Origin: Bradyrhizobium lupini
GTDB lineage: Bacteria; Pseudomonadota; Alphaproteobacteria; Rhizobiales; Xanthobacteraceae
NCBI RefSeq assembly: GCF_040939785.1
Contig: NZ_CP162553.1
Coordinates: forward strand, 7,025,001 to 7,089,000
Direction of reading: 5' to 3'
DNA: 64,000 nt
In this document: positions 25,901 through 27,130 of the stretch, piece after piece
Position numbering within the stretch: position 1 is the stretch's first letter
Layout of the letters: each line of letters begins with the position of its first letter
Notes under the pieces: model-generated
Databases searched by the model: none
Told to the model about the DNA's origin: nothing
What the model saw: the letters and a program-made list of their open reading frames with translations, nothing else
Program-made: the position numbers and the translations under genes

Positions 25901-27130
25901 CCGTATTCAGTACGGTTCGCGCCTGCACGTCGACGAGGGCGACATGGTCAAGCGTGGCCAGCGTATCGTGGAATGGGATCCCTACACCCGTCCGCTCCTC
26001 ACCGAGGTCGAAGGTACTATCGGCTTCGAGGATCTGGTCGAGGGACAGTCGATCTCGGAAACGCTCGACGAGGCCACCGGTATTGCCAAGCGCGTGGTCA
26101 TCGACTGGCGCTCGATGCGCGGCGGCGGGGACCTGCGTCCCGCCATCGTGATCAAGGGCAAGGACGGCAAGGTGCTCAAGCTCGCCCGTGGCGGCGATGC
26201 CCGCTACATGCTGTCGGTCGATGCCATTCTGTCGGTCGATGTCGGCGCCAAGGTCCAGGCGGGCGACATTCTCGCCCGTGTCTCGACCGAAAGCGCCAAG
26301 ACGCGCGACATCACCGGCGGTCTGCCGCGGGTGGCGGAACTGTTCGAGGCTCGGCGTCGAAGGATGCGGCGATCATCGCCGAAATCGCGGGCACCATCCG
26401 GTTTGGGCGCGACTATAAGAACAAGCGTCGTATCTCGATCGAGCCGATGGACAAGACCGAAGAGGCGCGCGAGTACCTGATCCCGAAGGGCAAGCACATC
26501 CACCTTCAGGACGGCGACGTCGTCGAAAAGGGCGACTTCATCGTGGAAGGCAACCCGGCGCCGCACGACATTCTGGCGGTCAAGGGCATCGAGGAACTCG
26601 CGGCCTATCTGGTCAACGAGATCCAGGAGGTCTATCGGCTCCAGGGCGTGCTCATCAACGACAAGCACATCGAGGTGATCGTCCGTCAGATGCTCCAGAA
26701 GGTGGAAGTCACCGACCAGGGCGACACGGACATGATCTCGGGCGAGCAGATCGACAAGATCGAGTTCGACCAGATCAACGCGAAGGCCAAGGAAGAGGGC
26801 AAGAAGATCGCCACGGGGACCCCGGTTCTGCTCGGCATCACCAAGGCGAGCCTTCAGACCCGCTCCTTCTTCTCGGCGGCCTCGTTCCAGGAGACCACCC
26901 GCGTCCTCACGGAAGCGGCGGTCAACGGCAAGGTCGATCCGCTCGAAGGCCTCAAGGAGAACGTCATCGTCGGCCGGCTGATTCCGGCAGGCACCGGCGC
27001 CTCCATGGCGAAGATCCGCGAAGTCGCTGTGAAGCGCGACAAGATGATCCTCGACGAGCGCGAGAAGCAGGCGGCGGTCGTGCCGCCGGCGCCGGAAGTG
27101 GAGCCGATGGCGCTGCCACCTGCGGAATGA
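22935..27130 (+). CDS. rpoC: DNA-directed RNA polymerase subunit beta-prime, with apparent frameshift
   Basis: The gene encodes beta-prime. It has the N-terminal zinc site ([19 protein letters not shown]), the catalytic [12 protein letters not shown] with Asp462, Asp464 and Asp466, the trigger-loop region ([20 protein letters not shown]) and the second zinc site (CGTKLG and [15 protein letters not shown]). As written, the frame breaks after [13 protein letters not shown]: one C seems missing near 26358 (CGTCGAAGG where CGTCCGAAGG is expected). Restoring it resumes [19 protein letters not shown] and gives about 1398 residues ending at 27130. Without it translation stops at 26480, losing about 257 residues of an essential protein, so an error in the sequence is the best explanation. 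A terminator follows. Confidence 0.95.

Follow-up and report, generated by a model that had tools for sequence, protein, structure and literature searches.

The gene for the beta-prime subunit of RNA polymerase (rpoC) is written in this assembly with a reading frame that breaks well before the end of the gene, and beta-prime is essential. The locus raises the question of whether the break is a property of the organism or of its assembled sequence. The window analyzed here is a 64,000-nucleotide stretch within a single-contig genome of 7,826,318 bases, whose closest named loci are those of Bradyrhizobium. We conclude with high confidence, by strong inference and not by proof, that one base was erroneously deleted from the assembled sequence and that the break is absent from the living cell.

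The rpoC frame and its break

The rpoC locus extends over positions 22935-27130 of the forward strand. The first-pass annotation had claimed that its frame is broken near 26358 by an apparent single-base loss, that it then stops at 26480, and that the C-terminus is encoded in another frame up to 27130. All of these points were confirmed by the ORFs, by tblastn searches with the beta-prime proteins of five congeners, and by base alignment.

The ORF starting at 22935 encodes 1181 aa up to the stop at 26480. Its native-frame part (22935..26357; about 1141 aa) scores as rpoC (NCBIfam TIGR02386) and contains the Pfam Rpb1 domains 1-5, domain 5 being incomplete. The gene leaves its frame at 26357-26360, a site located by tblastn with the beta-prime of five out of five congeners, where the window is one base short compared with its relatives and four congeners carry a CC run. 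From there, ORF and tblastn data delimit about 40 out-of-frame residues ending in the premature stop (26358..26480), and the remaining rpoC continues on the same strand in the other frame (26360..27130) as about 256 residues that encode the missing C-terminus, keep their similarity to the congeners and reach the stop at 27130. The Rpb1 domain 5 is divided between the two frames. No other match to this domain was found in a genome-wide family search, indicating that rpoC is single copy and that both pieces lie at one locus.

In counts made to gauge constraint on the sequence past the break, the 3' part of rpoC shows 8-13 nonsynonymous differences with respect to five congeners, compared with 4-13 in the ten congener pairs, six of which have 4-5 while the four high ones all include the genome G022. 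For the 5' part, too, the window is on the high side (20-28, against 11-25 among the congeners).

rpoC is uninterrupted in the relatives

We searched 60 relatives, 35 of them of the same genus, and found a match in 58. In the alignment with Bradyrhizobium rpoC genes, which the first-pass annotation had proposed as a check, all 29 congener loci read were unbroken, with 258-259 residues beyond the conserved motif that precedes the break. When intactness was counted on both strands, 78 of 79 further loci (80 minus L066) continued for more than 150 residues beyond this motif, the exception being L065, where the locus itself ends after 112 residues. The base alignment showed the window to be net one base short at the break relative to those relatives whose alignment spans the site; for some distant loci the alignment reaches only the break site, or is absent. 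The break is missing, then, in the relatives even though the gene is single copy and, by established knowledge, essential, which is the pattern expected of an erroneous indel.

Frame breaks elsewhere in the assembly

Frame breaks were also sought by homology in six regions totaling 164 kb, i.e., the window and five stretches of 20 kb, requiring the support of at least three of four congeners. This genome contains 10 such breaks and the matching loci of the four congeners contain none, although five of the six regions had been picked partly for breaks flagged by a frame scan, so that the density of breaks is inflated. With at least two supporters, the count is 12 for this genome and 4 for all four congeners combined. 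One locus, L115, was left out because it has a synteny match in only one of the four congeners. The 10 breaks comprise seven one-base deletions, one two-base deletion, and two one-base insertions; for one of the ten (L127, near 14433), one of the three supporters comes from an antisense frame, though the base alignment agrees in four out of four congeners. This assembly has, therefore, an excess of gene-breaking small indels over its congeners, as an error-bearing sequence would. A looser test of the window region, without the three-of-four rule, yielded two clusters with at least three supporters here, one in the congener G011 and one in the congener G021, showing that breaks are present in other assemblies too. 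Apart from rpoC, the other nine supported breaks lie in genes that are possibly dispensable, and thus, some of them may be real pseudogenes.

Two breaks in the 64 kb window, the sole gauge of its local error rate, were verified under the rule of at least three of four congeners. The second one lies on the reverse strand, toward the C-terminal end of a gene resembling FAD-dependent monooxygenases (31670..31690), which is one base short according to four out of four congeners; the event that the frame-HMM scan described below assigned to this gene is located elsewhere, at 31902. That scan also flagged a third possible break at about 54990-55015, supported by only one of five congeners, which could be a real difference at the gene end.

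The frame-HMM scan, which uses no relatives, was applied to 20 evenly spaced stretches of this genome plus the window, 464 kb in total, and to 797 kb of five congeners. It detected 68 events here and 47 in the five congeners at a penalty of 15, 50 and 24 at a penalty of 20, and 29 and 11 at a penalty of 30, the first 20 kb of the contig holding 12 of the 50. G011, which like G022 was sampled in the rpoC neighborhood only, comes close to this genome only at the loosest penalty (16.8 vs. 17.6 events per 100 kb coding). Deletions account for 8 of the 10 breaks of the homology test, but for 29 of 50 frame-HMM events at a penalty of 20 and 14 of 29 at a penalty of 30. In keeping with broken genes, the completeness of this genome is 96.81, compared with 100 in all of the 11 other single-contig congeners tabled; of the 35 congeners overall, 4 score below this genome, each of them multi-contig.

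The assembly also breaks argS, another essential gene present in one copy. Among the tRNA-synthetase matches, argS appears as open frames of 331 and 342 aa, whereas three out of three congeners compared have an intact protein of 599 aa that corresponds to arginine-tRNA ligase (TIGR00456). According to tblastn, argS is divided between two frames near residue 300 (L322, 4099-5885; genome 7614099-7615885), and a family search found no second copy, only the two pieces at a single locus. It is established knowledge that a cell could not survive if it lacked both beta-prime and ArgRS, whereas an assembly can miss the two of them. An EF-G-family gene (NF009379) is likewise split near residue 495 (L323, about 6368-6392) and is intact in three out of three congeners compared. 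Another gene of the GTP_EFTU family, whose frame of 700 aa lies in the window region, shows no shortening, and thus, the split gene may not be the essential EF-G.

The two ends of the contig

Positions 1-28424 and 7797969-7826318 of the contig (L113, L317, L320, and L321; contig 1 of this genome, G000) align end to end in the same orientation with 97.27% identity, the two copies differing by 405 mismatches and by 209 gap openings that add up to 374 columns. Most of the mismatches (359 of 405) fall within the last 10 kb of the contig, and there is a smaller cluster near its start, so that the overall overlap figure cannot be transferred to the window, located at 7.03-7.09 Mb; the middle 12 kb of the overlap has only 15 mismatches and 21 gap openings.

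Untrimmed circular overlap is known at the ends of long-read contigs. Judging from the alignment, we read the two ends as such an overlap, in which a single locus would have been assembled two times, each copy with mistakes of its own. The 28.4 kb at the start and at the end of the contig match in sequence and orientation, and no tested feature differs from the known artifact, the circularity of the chromosome being presumed here. A true duplication sitting exactly at both contig ends is far less likely. On this reading, the assembly contradicts itself at a locus that it represents twice, as expected if it contains errors.

Origin of the rpoC break

Given the many other broken genes, argS among them, and the disagreement between the contig ends, the rpoC break is almost certainly a mistake of the assembly. 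The first-pass annotation had considered an assembly or base-calling error most likely, and the excess of frame breaks, the broken argS, and the self-overlap of 28.4 kb at the ends all favor that view. The consensus of this single-contig assembly would have been insufficiently polished; a base would have been dropped at a short C run inside rpoC, and bases would have been dropped or added at other coding places of the same assembly, the organism presumably having an intact rpoC.

Long-read assemblies have been described as prone to false deletions by which genes are broken up (Kastor, PMC12007338; Homopolish, PMC8011154), and the breaks observed here resemble such errors in being small indels, a number of them apparent deletions, that are spread over a contiguous assembly and split genes intact in the relatives. 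The resemblance is incomplete: Kastor found most deletion errors after runs of four to five bases (PMC12007338), whereas the C run in rpoC has no more than two bases, a point against the error reading, and the ten breaks do not all lie in runs. The errors of this assembly may, by analogy, stem from long reads. PMC11017572 and PMC2330054 also deal with frame breaks of bacterial genomes that are artefactual or miscalled. No paper on this particular assembly was recognized in our literature search.

The explanation that survives best after an assembly error, although highly improbable, is that the base had truly been lost in the culture sequenced, as a lethal variant that reached the consensus or as one suppressed elsewhere. 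The written sequence does carry the break, and some frame breaks occur in congener genomes too. However, beta-prime is known to be essential, rpoC is single copy here and unbroken in the relatives read, and argS would need to have been broken simultaneously.

We consider it very unlikely indeed that the lineage is undergoing real gene decay, as a mutator or a degenerating symbiont might, with rpoC as one of many genuine pseudogenes. Such a process would fit the number of breaks in this genome, where the nine that the homology test supports besides that of rpoC lie in possibly dispensable genes. By established knowledge, however, no living cell can survive the decay of rpoC and argS, and decay does not explain why the two contig-end copies differ within one assembly, if they are one locus.

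Equally hard to credit is that the written sequence is real and that beta-prime is made from it, either by an unrecognized -1 recoding or as two overlapping pieces, just after a highly conserved motif. The two specific forms that this could take fare even worse. The first, to which we attach practically no weight, is that programmed -1 ribosomal frameshifting or transcriptional slippage yields a full-length beta-prime. The required shift would indeed be -1, and the first-pass annotation, which had found no suggestion of a programmed frameshift, was not quite accurate about the lack of a slippery heptamer: one XXXYYYZ heptamer was found on the forward strand (26402..26408) when the beta-prime ORF frame was scanned over 25973-26480. 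This heptamer, the only one in that frame and interval, lies in the shifted part, 45 nt past the break and not at the frame change. In the gene's own frame it is simply two codons for Phe-Gly, and even if the ribosome slipped at this point, about 15 residues would still be read in the wrong frame; judged by its position and coding, it does not look functional. No relative read requires a shift, all 29 congener loci being uninterrupted. Nothing in 26331-26380 points to polymerase slippage either, since the longest run in that interval is two bases. On the basis of the heptamer scan and the relatives, programmed frameshifting was rejected; the original judgment about it stands, supported by the distance of the heptamer from the break and by the uninterrupted relatives.

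The second form, with a chance just as negligible, is a genuinely divided beta-prime, each of whose two polypeptides would have its own start site, in the manner of cyanobacterial rpoC1/rpoC2 (TIGR02387, TIGR02388), which also place beta-prime in two open frames. The downstream frame is open upstream from 25973 and has an ATG at 26447. No start codon of this second frame lies at the break, and that ATG, the first one after it, is 29 residues further on, so that the residues between would be absent from both parts. If translation began at 25973 instead, well over 100 nonsense residues would come first, and the first polypeptide would end with about 40 nonsense residues. Besides, the cyanobacterial split is located far upstream: in the window protein, residues 18-562 are matched by the gamma model and residues 592-1013 by the beta-double-prime model, whereas the break of the window is near residue 1141 and has no restart. 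No relative read is split at this site, and the split was rejected on the position of the start codons after the break. A second, intact rpoC copy was also rejected, as the whole-genome family search found none.

In biological terms, the break at rpoC does not reveal a broken component of the cell. False frame breaks appear to be numerous in this genome, whose ends also seem to duplicate about 28 kb in discordant form, and thus, until it is repolished, neither its pseudogene calls nor its split genes and novel ORFs deserve trust. Any other result drawn from this assembly calls for the same caution if it hinges on one indel.

Genes next to rpoC

Directly after rpoC, positions 27322-29382 of the window encode a protein of 686 aa in which a FAD amine-oxidase domain is joined to a methyltransferase domain, and the next gene (29515-31536) encodes an ABC transporter. 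The counterpart of the 686 aa gene in G021 has itself a frame break at position 40034 of the joined loci L145-L148, supported by five of five other genomes, that of the window included, so that errors or true pseudogenes may be present in further assemblies as well.
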